The position numbers and the translations under genes were made by a program. The notes beneath the pieces are model-generated. The model was not told the DNA's origin. It worked only from the letters and a program-made list of their open reading frames with translations, and did not search any database. A DNA stretch of 57,769 bases from NCBI GenBank assembly GCA_003331875.1, contig QOQA01000006.1, positions 1 through 57,769 on the forward strand. Direction: 5' to 3'. Shown here piece by piece: positions 52,790-57,769 of the stretch. The stretch's first letter is position 1. Each line of letters starts with the position of its first letter. The DNA is from Cryomorphaceae bacterium (GTDB lineage: Bacteria; Bacteroidota; Bacteroidia; Flavobacteriales; Flavobacteriaceae).

Positions 52790-53224
52790 ATGCAAGTTGA
52801 AAAAGGAAATAATTATCTTTCAAAAAAAATTCAAATTCTTAAATCAGGACACTTAATAACTGATTGCTTAGTAAATGGGGTATCTGCGAAAGTCATTATA
52901 GATACCGGAGCTTCAAATTCTTGCATTGATTCAAACAGTTCAGAAATATTTAAGGTTAAAGTTGAAAATTATGATGAACAAGCATCGAGTGCTACAGAAA
53001 AAATAAAAAACATGTTCATATCCAAAAATAATTCAATTGATATTGTAGGGTTTGTTATCAAAAATTTTAAATTATTTGTTTTTGATATGAATCATATTAA
53101 TGAAACCCTAGAGGAAAATGAGTGCATTAAAATTGATGGGATTATTGGAAATGATATTTTAAATACATATGAAGCAATTATAAATTTTAAATTAAAAAAA
53201 ATTTATTTAAAATTAGATCTCTAA
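52790..53224 (+). CDS. Retropepsin-like aspartic protease (clan AA)
   Basis: A 144-residue single-domain aspartic protease homologue. The catalytic motif [12 protein letters not shown] lies near 36-47, preceded by the strand [14 protein letters not shown], and the second family motif [17 protein letters not shown] is near 121-137, followed by [10 protein letters not shown]. Length fits a half-site enzyme that would work as a dimer. There is no signal peptide or membrane segment, so it is probably cytosolic. The target is unknown. It is divergent from tatD and overlaps the 3' end of sucB by 12 bases. Confidence 0.85.
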
Positions 53225-54442
53225 GGACTTTTCAAGATCATTGTTCATCAAGAATTCCAAAGGGTTTTCAAGTGCTTCTTTTATTTTAAGTAAAAACCCT
53301 ACTGACTCTTTTCCATCAATAATCCTGTGGTCGTAACTAAGAGCCAAGTACATCATTGGATGTATTTCAACTTTACCATCAACAGCAATTGGTCTTTCAA
53401 TAATATTGTGCATTCCTAAAATAGAGGATTGAGGTGGATTGAGAATTGGAGTTGATAACATTGAGCCAAACACACCTCCATTTGAAATAGTAAAAGTCCC
53501 ACCCTCCATATCTTCAATGGATATTTCACCATCTCTTGCTTTTACAGCCAAACGCTTAATTTCCTTTTCAATACCACTAAAAGTCAACTTATCAGCATCT
53601 CTCACCACAGGTACTAACAAACCTTTGGGACCTGACACAGCAATGCTGATATCATAAAAATCAAAGCTTAATTTGTAATCTTCGTCAATCATTGCGTGAA
53701 CATCTGGAAACTCCTTGAGTGCATTAACAACTGCTTTTGTAAAAAAGCTCATAAAACCTAAACCAACACCATGTTTATCTTTAAAAATTTCCTTAAATTT
53801 TTTTCTTATTTCAAAAATTGGAGTCATATTAACCTCATTAAAGGTTGTTAACATTGCTGTCTCGTTCTTAACTGCAACTAACCTTTGTGAAACCTTTCTT
53901 CTGAGCATTGATAATTTCTTTCGCTCTGTTTTTCTTCCCTTAGAAATTAAACTATCATCAATCTTTGGTAATACTTTTAGAGCATCTTGTTTTGTAATTC
54001 TACCGTCTCTCCCAGAACCAATTACATCTAATGGGTTGATGCCCTTTTCACTGAGAATTTTTGATGCAGCAGGTGAGGGAGTGGAGTTACTAGATTTATC
54101 AGAAATGACTATACCGGCATTTGATTCACGTTCTAAATCTTGATCTACAACTTGATCATCTGTGACTGGTTTTGAAGGTTCAACAATATCTTCAGTTGGC
54201 TTTTTTACTGATGTATCAATATGGCAAACTATATTTCCAACCGGAACTACATCTCCTTCATTAGCTTTGAGTGTAATAACTCCTGACTCCTCAGCAGGCA
54301 AGTCAAGAGTTGCTTTATCTGAATCCACTTCAGCAATTGTTTGATCTTTTTCAACATAATCACCATCAGCCACAAGCCATTGTGCTATTTCAACTTCTGA
54401 AATAGACTCGCCAGGTGATGGGACTTTCATTTCTAGTATCAT
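53213..54442 (-). CDS. sucB: Dihydrolipoyllysine succinyltransferase (E2 of 2-oxoglutarate dehydrogenase)
   Basis: Core of the 2-oxoglutarate dehydrogenase complex. The 409 residues have a lipoyl domain with the modified lysine in [17 protein letters not shown] near 42-58, a hinge and an E3/E1-binding domain ([20 protein letters not shown] near 120-139). The catalytic domain (about 175-405) follows, with [15 protein letters not shown] near 377-391 carrying the active-site His and Asp. It lies one base after the PNGase F-like gene, which separates it from sucA. Confidence 0.97.
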
Positions 54443-54443
54443 T

Positions 54444-55847
54444 TTAATTAGATATTATTGCTCGTTCAATTTCACTATTACTTTTTAATATCAAAAATGA
54501 AGATATGGCATAAAAAGCATTTTTGTTGTTATACCCCGTTGTTCCAACGAAATCATTTGTCCAGTTCTCAAAGTCATATTCATAATTCAGAGTTTTATTA
54601 GATACGTTGTTACTAAATTTATCAATTCTAACAGGAACAGTCATTCCAGGACACCAACCTGCTCTGTCAGGTTGCCAATTCCCCCCCTGATTATTAATTG
54701 GATTTTGAGAACAACCAATTGGCCCCATGTAATGACTGAACAAATTGGAATTATCTATTTTAATATTATGCGTTCTAAAACACCATTCAGCGCATGCTCT
54801 TCCGTCAGAATCAGCGGGTGTAGCATGTCCCCAACCAGTTACTATGGTTCTTATATGGGCACTTTCTACATTATTTCCTATTTGTAATGATTTTATTAAA
54901 TCAAACTTATCTAAATCAATCTCTGTATTCCCATTTAACCCACCATAAGGAACACCACCTAAGGAATTTCCATTATGCTGAATAATTCTAGATACTTTGT
55001 AATATTTATAATCAGGTGTACCCGGTATAAAATCAAACTCTAGTGATACTATCCATCCAGAGCCAACCCAAGTTTCAACAAAAATTCTAAGCTCAACATT
55101 TCCCTCCAATAAATCTTTAAAATCTGTTACATCAAACTCAAGTCCTCTAGTAAGTTTATTATTATCAACACCGTAAGGGGTAATGTGACGACCTATCTCA
55201 AACCACTCATTTGTAATTTTATCTCTTACCATTATATTGGCATATCTGTCCCAAGGATCGCAACCCCCAGACGGACAATCCAATCTTAAATACATTTTAA
55301 TAATTTCAATATCACTTGTATCATTGTGTAAATCAAAACTTTGAACCGACGATTGACCATGCCCTCCCCCCCAAGCAATTCTTTGGTTCGAGAAAGCTCT
55401 GTAATTATACCTAAATTGAGATGCTGTTCCTGCTAAACTTACATTTGCATTTCCAGCTCCTGGACTTTCAAACAAAATACTTCCATTCAAATTTCCTAAC
55501 TCAGAGGGGGAAAATCTCACAAAAATATTGCTTGAGGAAGAACCATTAATTGATATAGAATTTGAAAAATTAATATTATCCGAGGATACTTCAAAATCAC
55601 CGGAGACAGTAATTGTAATACTTGAATCCAGGTTGTTAGGGTTTACATTAACAGTTTGTGCCGCTGATTTTTTGGTAACCATCGTATCTGAGAAATCAAT
55701 TGATGATGGATTTACTATGATTGACTTGCTAACAACATTTTGATTACTTGAATCACCACCATCTTTACTACAATAAACAAATACAAAAGCCATTAAGACT
55801 AGAGTTATTGGTTTAATTATTTTTAGATTTATGTTCTTAAACATCAT
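54444..55847 (-). CDS. Peptide-N-glycosidase F-like lipoprotein (N-glycan deglycosylase)
   Basis: Expected to release N-linked glycans by cleaving the bond between GlcNAc and asparagine. The 467 residues start with a lipoprotein signal ending VFVYC, so Cys26 is lipidated; SKDGGDSS follows and may direct it to the cell surface. Residues of about 42-142 resemble a hydin/ASH-like Ig domain. The rest matches PNGase F of Elizabethkingia: [12 protein letters not shown] near 196-207, [49 protein letters not shown] near 352-364, PINNQGGNW and DRAGWCPGM. The three known catalytic acids (Asp60, Glu118, Glu206 in PNGase F) correspond to Asp200, Glu258 and Glu354 here. No T9SS C-terminal domain is seen. 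Placed between sucA and sucB. A second ATG at 55844 is equally possible as start. Confidence 0.92.
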
Positions 55848-55850
55848 TAA

Positions 55851-57769
55851 TTATTTTTTAAAATTATCTTTTTTTTCATCAAATACATAGTCAATTACTT
55901 GCTGATGTCTTCTTTTAAACCTAACAGAACTACCAGATGCTGGAGAACTATAGAATCGTCTAGATGCAACTCTAAATGATTTTGCAAAATCCAAATGCAT
56001 TAATACGTGTCCCCATGCACCCATATTTCTTGGCTCTTCTTGTGCCCACACAACATCTTTTGAATCGTATTTATTAATTAATTTTTTAATGGATTCGATG
56101 GGCAGAGGAAACAATTGTTCTATTCTAACGATCGCAACATTTTTTATCTGATTATTTTCCCTAAAATCAATTAAATCATAAAAAAACTTACCACTGCAAA
56201 AGACAAGTTTTTCAGGGCTTTCAATATTTTCATCATCAATTACAGGGTTAAACTTACCATCAATTAAATCATATTTTGACGATATAACTTTTGGGTTTCT
56301 TAAAAGACTTTTAGGTGTCATTAAAACCAGTGGCTTTCTATATTTTGTAATAACTTGTCTTCTTAGGAGATGAAATAAATTCGCTGGTGTTGTACAGTTT
56401 GCAACAAACATATTGTCCTTGGCACACAATTGAAGGTACCTTTCAAGTCTTGCAGATGAGTGTTCTGCACCCTGACCTTCATATCCGTGCGGAAGCATCA
56501 AAATTAATCCGTTTTGAAGTTTCCATTTATCTTCAGCTGAAGATAAATATTGATCGATCATTATTTGTGCTCCGTTACTAAAGTCTCCAAATTGTGCTTC
56601 CCATATTGTTAAGGTTTGAGGTGAAGCAAGTGCATAGCCATATTCATAACCCATTACACCATATTCTGATAATGAAGAATTATATATTTCAAACGTACCT
56701 TGGTCTTCAGATATATTGTTTAATGGTACATATTCATCCTCAGATTTTTCCTTTTTAAGAATGGCATGTCTGTGAGAAAAAGTTCCCCTTTCAACATCTT
56801 GACCAGAAATTCTTACGTTATAACCCTCTTTCAAAACAGTACCATAGGCAAGTGTTTCAGCTATTGCCCAATCTACCTTGTCCTCTATAAAATACATTGT
56901 CTTTCTATCTGACATTAATTTTGAAATTTTTCTTAAATATTGATCAGGGCTATTTAGCTCAAACAAACTTTCTGAAACTTCATCCAAATCTTTTTTAGTT
57001 ACACAAGTTTTGACTTTTTTCATCATGTCAGATTTCTTAACAGACTTAAACCCTTTCCATTCATGTTCCATAAAAGGGGTTATAATGGCATTTTTTTCTT
57101 TTTTAGAATCAACTAGATCTGAGTCTAACTCATTAGCATAATCCCTTTCCATTTTCTTTAATTCGGTGTCTGAGATTATATTTTCTGATATTAATTTCTG
57201 AGCATATATGTCTTTAACAGAGGGATGATTTGAAATAGATTTGTAAAGTTTTGGCTGAGTAAATCTTGGTTCATCTCCTTCATTATGACCGTATTTTCTA
57301 TACCCTAATAAATCGATAAAAACATCTCTTTTATACCTCATTCTGTAATCTATAGCAAAATTTGAAGCGTGTACAACAGCTTCAGCATCATCAGCATTTA
57401 CATGCAATATCGGACACAAATTTGCTTTGCCCACATCAGTACAATATGTGGATGACCTTCCATCAGCATAATTAGTGGTAAAACCTATCTGATTATTCAC
57501 CACTATGTGAATGGTTCCACCAGTTTTAAAGCCTTTGAGTCTTTCCATTTGAACAACTTCATATACAACACCTTGACCAGCAATAGCTGCATCACCATGT
57601 ATGATTACTGGTAGTACATTTTCAATATTTTCTTTATGATATTTATCTTGCTTTGCTCGTGTGATTCCTTGTACAACAGGTCCAACTGATTCGAGATGAG
57701 ATGGATTTGGAGCCAAATTAATAAAAACATTAATTCCTGAGTCTGATTTTCTTTTTGAGGTCCACCCTA
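55851..57769 (-). CDS. sucA: 2-oxoglutarate dehydrogenase E1, C-terminal part (cut by window edge)
   Basis: Thiamin-diphosphate-dependent decarboxylase of the 2-oxoglutarate dehydrogenase complex. The reading frame is open to the right edge; the visible 638 residues cover the C-terminal two thirds. Motifs include APNPSHLESVGPVVQGI, VIIHGDAAIAGQGVVYEV, VNNQIGFTTNYADGRSSTYC, VFIDLLGYRKYGHNEGDEPR and LPHGYEGQGAEHSSARLERY. The end is VWAQEEPRNMGAWGHV and RRHQQVIDYVF. An internal TTG at 57716 is not a real start. Its stop is three bases before the PNGase F-like gene. Confidence 0.97.
   Translation of the reverse strand, partial: GWTSKRKSDSGINVFINLAPNPSHLESVGPVVQGITRAKQDKYHKENIENVLPVIIHGDAAIAGQGVVYEVVQMERLKGFKTGGTIHIVVNNQIGFTTNYADGRSSTYCTDVGKANLCPILHVNADDAEAVVHASNFAIDYRMRYKRDVFIDLLGYRKYGHNEGDEPRFTQPKLYKSISNHPSVKDIYAQKLISENIISDTELKKMERDYANELDSDLVDSKKEKNAIITPFMEHEWKGFKSVKKSDMMKKVKTCVTKKDLDEVSESLFELNSPDQYLRKISKLMSDRKTMYFIEDKVDWAIAETLAYGTVLKEGYNVRISGQDVERGTFSHRHAILKKEKSEDEYVPLNNISEDQGTFEIYNSSLSEYGVMGYEYGYALASPQTLTIWEAQFGDFSNGAQIMIDQYLSSAEDKWKLQNGLILMLPHGYEGQGAEHSSARLERYLQLCAKDNMFVANCTTPANLFHLLRRQVITKYRKPLVLMTPKSLLRNPKVISSKYDLIDGKFNPVIDDENIESPEKLVFCSGKFFYDLIDFRENNQIKNVAIVRIEQLFPLPIESIKKLINKYDSKDVVWAQEEPRNMGAWGHVLMHLDFAKSFRVASRRFYSSPASGSSVRFKRRHQQVIDYVFDEKKDNFKK

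Follow-up and report, generated by a model that had tools for sequence, protein, structure and literature searches.

The 57,769-nucleotide stretch analysed here (the window, i.e. the whole of contig QOQA01000006.1 of a Cryomorphaceae bacterium, assembly GCA_003331875.1) carries a gene for a PNGase F-type deglycosylase between sucA and sucB, the genes for the E1 and E2 components of 2-oxoglutarate dehydrogenase. The protein is best accounted for, as judged from its sequence, as an ordinary and functional PNGase F lipoprotein. What sets it apart is its lasting place at the sucAB locus, which we extend from one contig to 12 genomes of the genus. We posit that a PNGase gene resident in the genus moved into the sucA-sucB junction, that this position serves as an expression niche, and that the enzyme deglycosylates glycoproteins for peptide access, an account that we consider probable, with ample room for doubt. 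In wider terms, a usually adjacent pair of core metabolic genes can take in a gene for an accessory surface enzyme and keep it over the long term, and the sucA-sucB gap occasionally admits other genes in this family.

Distribution of the interruption within the genus

Among 23 genomes of the genus (given as G numbers, with G000 for the window's own), the PNGase was found in 15, and sucA and sucB were found together in the same 16, with no match to either in the remaining seven. The PNGase gene lies between the two in 12 of these 16. It is alone in the interval in nine genomes (G000, G003, G009, G011, G015, G017, G018, G019, G021), and in the other three (G007, G010, G020) it is accompanied by metK, ahcY and a gene for a PEMT-type methyltransferase, identified with Pfam on the G010 copies. 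These extra genes sit between sucA and the PNGase gene (L128:3207-6224, and likewise in L129 and L130; the loci of G010, G020 and G007, respectively). Five of the 12 genomes also appear as named loci (L016-L020) and were counted once; the isolate names of these records suggest a marine origin. As a side observation, seven congeners have metK on the same contig as sucA, at a distance of about 22-48 kb on its upstream side, with ahcY coming after metK in the six that were inspected.

The first-pass annotation had placed the gene three bases after sucA and one base before sucB, and we confirm both spacers; the former becomes 6 bp, not 3, if the second ATG is the PNGase start. Across the 12 genomes, the spacing between sucA and PNGase is 3 bp in five, 6-8 bp in four and about 3 kb in the three with extra genes, and sucB follows the PNGase gene after 1 bp in five and after 39-41 bp in six, with an 8-bp overlap in G011. 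An assembly or binning artefact might be suspected in a window that comes from a fragmented 1.08-Mb genome of 75% completeness, and an assembly error had been named beforehand as a possible refutation. The same order is found, however, in eight other assemblies without extra genes, whose PNGases share 59-89% identity with that of the window, and in three more with extra genes, which excludes an assembly error and makes the probability of any such artefact negligible.

The four other genomes with both genes differ among each other. In G014 and G016, sucA and sucB are only 9 bp apart, with no PNGase between them, and G004 has a 345-amino-acid (aa) open reading frame (ORF) without Pfam match on the opposite strand between the two genes (L131:6915-7952). 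In G008 (L132:3-1675), metK comes directly after sucA, followed by an inverted piece of sucB at the contig start that is perhaps an amplification chimera; the genome search found no PNGase match in G008, where the sucA-sucB interval is unassembled.

Identity of the protein

That the product is a lipoprotein with a full PNGase F catalytic region, as initially annotated, is borne out by Pfam, phmmer, predicted fold and active-site residues, and by a lipobox seen on inspection. Both Pfam domains are present (N-glycanase_N with 25.3 bits at a cut-off of 22.4; N-glycanase_C with 39 bits at a cut-off of 25), and residues 147-467 align over nearly the full length of the PNGase F of Elizabethkingia meningoseptica (E 6e-109). 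The predicted model (mean pLDDT 79.7, mostly <50 in residues 341-349) matches 1PNF, 1PGS and 3PMS in Foldseek with TM-scores by target of 0.90-0.91 and 50-51% identity; for 1PGS, a structure of two eight-stranded beta-sheets, the TM-score by target is 0.91 at 51% identity and a root-mean-square deviation of 2.9. Residues D200, E258 and E354 of the window protein align with D60, E118 and E206 of PNGase F. These three positions are kept in 93, 91 and 93 of the 93 rows of a PNGase alignment in which three genomes were entered twice (G068/L053, G077/L045, G089/L058), and the two exceptions at the E118 position are Asp (G011, L063). By sequence, predicted fold and active-site residues, the window protein is a true PNGase F, and it is the sole match in the window's own genome.

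According to PMC9522356, Glu or Asp at the E118 position is associated with a block by core alpha1,3-fucose, and Gly is found in type II enzymes. The residue is Glu in the window protein and Asp in G011, i.e. of the type I kind and not Gly, so that type I specificity, with core alpha1,3-fucose blocking the enzyme, would be expected for the window PNGase.

The lipobox VFVYC is followed by SKDGGD, which on inspection bears a partial likeness to the export signal of Bacteroidota surface lipoproteins. PMC5080379 gives C-X-K-(D/E)2-X as the optimum of this signal, whereas the lysine at +3 of the window protein is followed by one acidic residue, at +4. Residues 43-131 are predicted as beta-strands with pLDDT mostly >90, and CEP192 SPD-2 domains are among the Foldseek matches. 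The PNGase of G007 (L130:6316-7389) has 357 aa and no N-terminal immunoglobulin-like (Ig-like) domain, and it retains a lipobox-like start.

History of the proposed relocation

A locus tree built from sucA, sucB and TatD of 18 genomes (TatD in 15) unites the 12 PNGase-interrupted genomes in one clade with a support of 99. G004, G014, G016 and G008 stand beside it (83 for G008), and outside lies G026, the closest sampled other genus, in which sucA and sucB are 9 bp apart and PNGase has no match. In the PNGase tree, the sucAB-located copies form one clade (100), with the copies of G001, G004 and G016 as its sister group (100). G016 and G004 have the gene after a 171- or 181-aa gene, between genes of 311 aa and of 303 or 304 aa, and G004 has further ORFs there. 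The 303-type gene also comes after the 311-aa gene in G014, G008 and G002, but with neither the PNGase nor the 171-181-aa gene between them. The copy of G001 is at a third chromosomal place, which brings the places of PNGase in the genus to three.

Since PNGases of the same clade lie elsewhere in G001, G004 and G016, the gene appears to have been resident in the genus and to have changed place. The simplest account of these sequences would be one relocation into the sucA-sucB junction in the ancestor of the 12 genomes, followed by vertical retention. Recent acquisition from another genus was considered and is not favoured, as the PNGases of the genus form one clade (100). A phage origin was set aside, as one scan with short patterns found no relative in viral contigs. 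Within the clade, the branching of the locus tree and that of the PNGase tree do not fully agree. G018, for instance, is grouped by the PNGase tree with G010 and G020 and not with G017 and G015; the difference is not significant there, the alternative not being rejected (AU p 0.204).

In the eight pairs that do not involve G011, the PNGase has a ratio of nonsynonymous to synonymous substitution rates (dN/dS; NG86) of 0.067-0.091, which is similar to sucA (0.038-0.071) and sucB (0.066-0.095), and indicates strong purifying selection on the gene. The PNGase of G011 (L138:7723-9135) is diverged, with 65-66% identity, dS of 1.45-1.82 and dN/dS of 0.14-0.18, between ordinary flanks. In the pair G017-G018 (L135, L136), the dS of dinB, a cupin gene, sucA and sucB is 0.22-0.48, that of the PNGase is 1.43, and other neighbours range from 1.26 to 2.08, a pattern indicative of exchange tracts on both sides of the PNGase, in its flanks rather than in the gene itself. 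The drop in identity over the PNGase of this pair had suggested an exchangeable allelic cassette, which is ruled out because it is the flanks that were exchanged according to dS.

The sucA-sucB gap and PNGase loci in other genera

For a wider comparison, 100 genomes of the family were sampled, one per genus with the window's own included, all of them at least 80% complete apart from the latter. Both genes were present in 95 genomes of other genera, in 93 of them on one contig and strand, and the gap, taken from one match end to the other with the sucA stop codon counted in, was <=150 bp in 83, 151-400 bp in three and >400 bp in seven. The initial statement that sucA and sucB are usually contiguous thus holds, and the window's pair, interrupted by 1.4 kb, departs from the usual short-gap arrangement on the same strand. 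Four of the five gaps of >400 bp that were examined (G030, G040, G060, G088) hold a homologous gene of 320-321 aa with 50-65% mutual identity (L205:3827-4792, L206:3802-4767, L207:3545-4510, L208:3740-4702), which is an M23 peptidase by Pfam in two genomes and by BLASTP homology in the other two. The gap of G045 encodes two proteins, one with a Plug domain and one of the DUF4299 family.

A close PNGase (E <=1e-100) was found in nine other genera and only a weak match in five, and by contig and position it lies beside sucA or sucB in none of these 14. From named genomes, 80 of 84 PNGase stretches were kept, with flanks of at most 6 kb and some shorter, which leaves 75 without L016-L020; at least five of the nine PNGase-bearing genera are also represented among them. 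The flanks of all 75 are free of sucA matches, and L021 alone has an E2-like match there, a distant one (27%).

Expression and possible use of the enzyme

Gene order and near-zero spacing make it likely that sucA, PNGase and sucB are co-transcribed as one operon, in which the PNGase gene would be the probable middle cistron with steady, growth-linked expression. The lipoprotein is probably exposed on the outside of the outer membrane, and its family identity suggests that it would hydrolyse the bond between N-acetylglucosamine (GlcNAc) and Asn, removing N-glycans from eukaryotic glycoproteins. The likely benefit is that glycoproteins would be opened to proteases and the peptides eaten; in the window's subclade, the freed sugar is probably of secondary value.

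In 14 of the 75 other PNGase loci, the PNGase gene has a gene for an M1 aminopeptidase downstream of it on its own strand, at a distance of 33-187 bp in 12. In the window's subclade (G000, G003, G009, G011, G019, G021), GH92, GH20 and nagB had no match in any of the six genomes, which are 57-87% complete; by our own arithmetic from their completeness, a gene that is present would go unseen in every one of them with a chance of about 2 in 10,000 if misses are independent. Across the 23 genomes of the genus, GH92 occurs in one, GH20 in 16 and nagB in 12. G013, which is not among the genomes in the tree, is likewise without a GH20 or nagB match. The aminopeptidase neighbours and the missing matches in the subclade speak for peptides over sugars, and a peptide-access role with growth-linked expression appears to be a better reading than a metabolic link. 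The locus is thereby a hint that glycoproteins (peptides) are used by uncultured flavobacteria whose genomes gave no match to three markers commonly tied to N-glycan or GlcNAc use.

The sucAB position itself would represent an expression niche, since M23-type genes in four genera and metK-ahcY-PEMT in three congeners share the gap, and it would not in itself speak for regulatory coupling to the tricarboxylic acid (TCA) cycle. The first-pass annotation had offered two options, an insertion without disturbance of expression or a purposeful co-expression that links glycan scavenging to the TCA cycle. The former is simpler and appears to fit better, whereas the latter has gained no support, given that the same inherited PNGase lies elsewhere in G001, G004 and G016, that the gap accepts unrelated genes, and that the subclade has no GH92, GH20 or nagB match in six incomplete genomes. 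A deliberate link between the PNGase and central metabolism is possible, and for the first two of these reasons it is without direct support.

One form of such a link would be functional coupling, in which protein deglycosylated by the PNGase yields glutamate-family amino acids that feed into 2-oxoglutarate, and joint expression with 2-oxoglutarate dehydrogenase was selected because a higher flux and a higher PNGase level would be needed at the same time. The short spacers, the M1 aminopeptidase beside the PNGase in other genera, and the occurrence of the arrangement in all 12 genomes of two subclades, whose sucA proteins are 74-76% identical to that of the window, are consistent with it. PNGase is nevertheless located elsewhere not only in the three congeners named but also in nine other genera, and the gap is not PNGase-specific, so that we regard functional coupling as unlikely, though not far-fetched. 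It is also unlikely, in our view, that the locus forms an adaptive unit in which co-transcription and near-touching cistrons tie the dose of deglycosylase to 2-oxoglutarate dehydrogenase and thereby couple the supply and burning of the glutamate family in a glycoprotein-eating bacterium. Alternatively, the gene may have landed by chance in a neutral position, without benefit, and may have been kept since its removal would risk sucB expression. The presence of other genes in the gap in other lineages and the three places of PNGase in the genus would agree with this. Purifying selection and the kept catalytic residues indicate that the PNGase itself is used, though this is no argument against a neutral position, an alternative to which we give very little credence.

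Several observations weigh against the account that we prefer, i.e. one relocation of a resident gene, growth-linked expression and peptide access. G008 branches outside the clade of 12, but metK immediately follows its sucA, just as in G007, G010 and G020; an earlier insertion that was lost again in G004, G014 and G016 is therefore possible. The locus tree was built from sucA and sucB, which show exchange tracts, and is thus no independent species tree; furthermore, the genomes of the genus are 55-87% complete. With regard to transcription, 0 terminator-like sites compared with 1.9 expected in shuffles carry little weight, and sigma-70-like sites numbered 38 compared with 23.5 in shuffles (both strands), although flavobacteria use a promoter consensus other than the sigma-70 type. 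The Bacteroidota promoter consensus was matched in one of nine PNGase genes, none of nine sucA ends and none of six upstream regions, and hence gave no positive control; a promoter inside the PNGase gene is possible. With regard to diet, the sister subclade (G007, G010, G015, G017, G018, G020) has GH20 and nagB in six of six genomes each, the GH20 matches being partial and weak (E 1e-9 to 1e-18), and sugar use is possible there. It is also possible in the window's subclade; other glycosidase families, such as GH2, GH3, GH18, GH38, GH125, GH130 and GH163, were outside the search.

These last points bear on glycan scavenging, in which the PNGase would supply the cell with carbon by freeing N-glycans from the glycoproteins of algae or other sources. 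Bacteroides PNGases have been studied within N-glycan breakdown, as stated in PMC9522356, and the sister subclade with its nagB and weak GH20 matches would be in keeping with such a use. As the three marker genes are unmatched throughout the window's own subclade, we consider glycan scavenging improbable.

Relation to known PNGases and sucAB loci

The PNGase F/EMTypeI of E. meningoseptica (1PNF, 1PGS, 3PMS) resembles the catalytic region of the window protein nearly end to end, with 50-51% identity and D60/E118/E206 kept. The window protein, whose activity is predicted, differs by its additional lipobox and N-terminal Ig-like domain and by the place of its gene inside sucA-sucB. PNGF-II and B035DRAFT_03341 of B. 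massiliensis (type II, with an NBL domain; 4R4Z, 7ZGN) belong to the same superfamily and also have an extra N-terminal domain, but they match more weakly (TM-score by target 0.42-0.45, 11-13% identity), and type II has a glycine at the E118 position according to PMC9522356, where the window protein has Glu. Other PNGase F proteins of Flavobacteriaceae (Psychroserpens, Bizionia, Lacinutrix and others; L021-L095) share 42-56% identity, and many, though not all, have the N-terminal domain of the window protein; their loci differ from the window in the flanks without sucA (75 of 75) and in the downstream aminopeptidase gene of the 14 loci mentioned above. The sucA-M23-sucB loci likewise have a co-directional inserted gene with near-zero spacing to sucA, but the inserted protein belongs to an unrelated family. 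Among the papers listed from the open-licence PMC literature, none deals with a PNGase gene within sucA-sucB, as judged by title and the beginning of the abstract.

Gene layout of the locus

Table 1. Features at the sucA-PNGase-sucB locus, in window positions.
Feature	Position	Strand	Basis
sucA (2-oxoglutarate dehydrogenase E1), C-terminal 638 aa, 5' part off contig	55851..57767	-	NF006914 equivalog, 908 bits; Pfam E1_dh, Transket_pyr, OxoGdeHyase_C
sucA stop codon	55851-55853	-	
Spacer sucA-PNGase, 3 bp	55848..55850	-	
PNGase F-type lipoprotein gene, 467 aa	54444..55847	-	Pfam PF09112/PF09113; phmmer to 3pms/1pnf/1pgs, E ~1e-108; Foldseek
Signal peptide, codons 1-26, ending in lipobox VFVYC	55770..55847	-	By inspection
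Ig-like N-terminal domain of ASH/choice-of-anchor D type, residues 43-131	55455..55721	-	Scores below curated cut-offs
PNGase F catalytic region, residues 147-467, with D200, E258, E354	54447..55409	-	
Spacer PNGase-sucB, 1 bp	54443..54443	-	
sucB, dihydrolipoyllysine-residue succinyltransferase (E2), 409 aa	53213..54442	-	NF004309/TIGR01347 equivalogs above cut-off
Retropepsin-like aspartyl protease gene, convergent with sucB	52790..53224	+	PF13650, PF13975, PF08284 above cut-off

The window is an entire contig (G000:C24) that ends within sucA, which places the 5' end of sucA and its promoter out of view. Upstream of sucA, a stretch resembling a surface-polysaccharide region was seen in G009 and G017, as judged by eye from the starts of the ORFs. 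At the other side, the operon is bounded by the retropepsin-like gene, which overlaps the 3' end of sucB by 12 bp and is likewise placed in several relatives.

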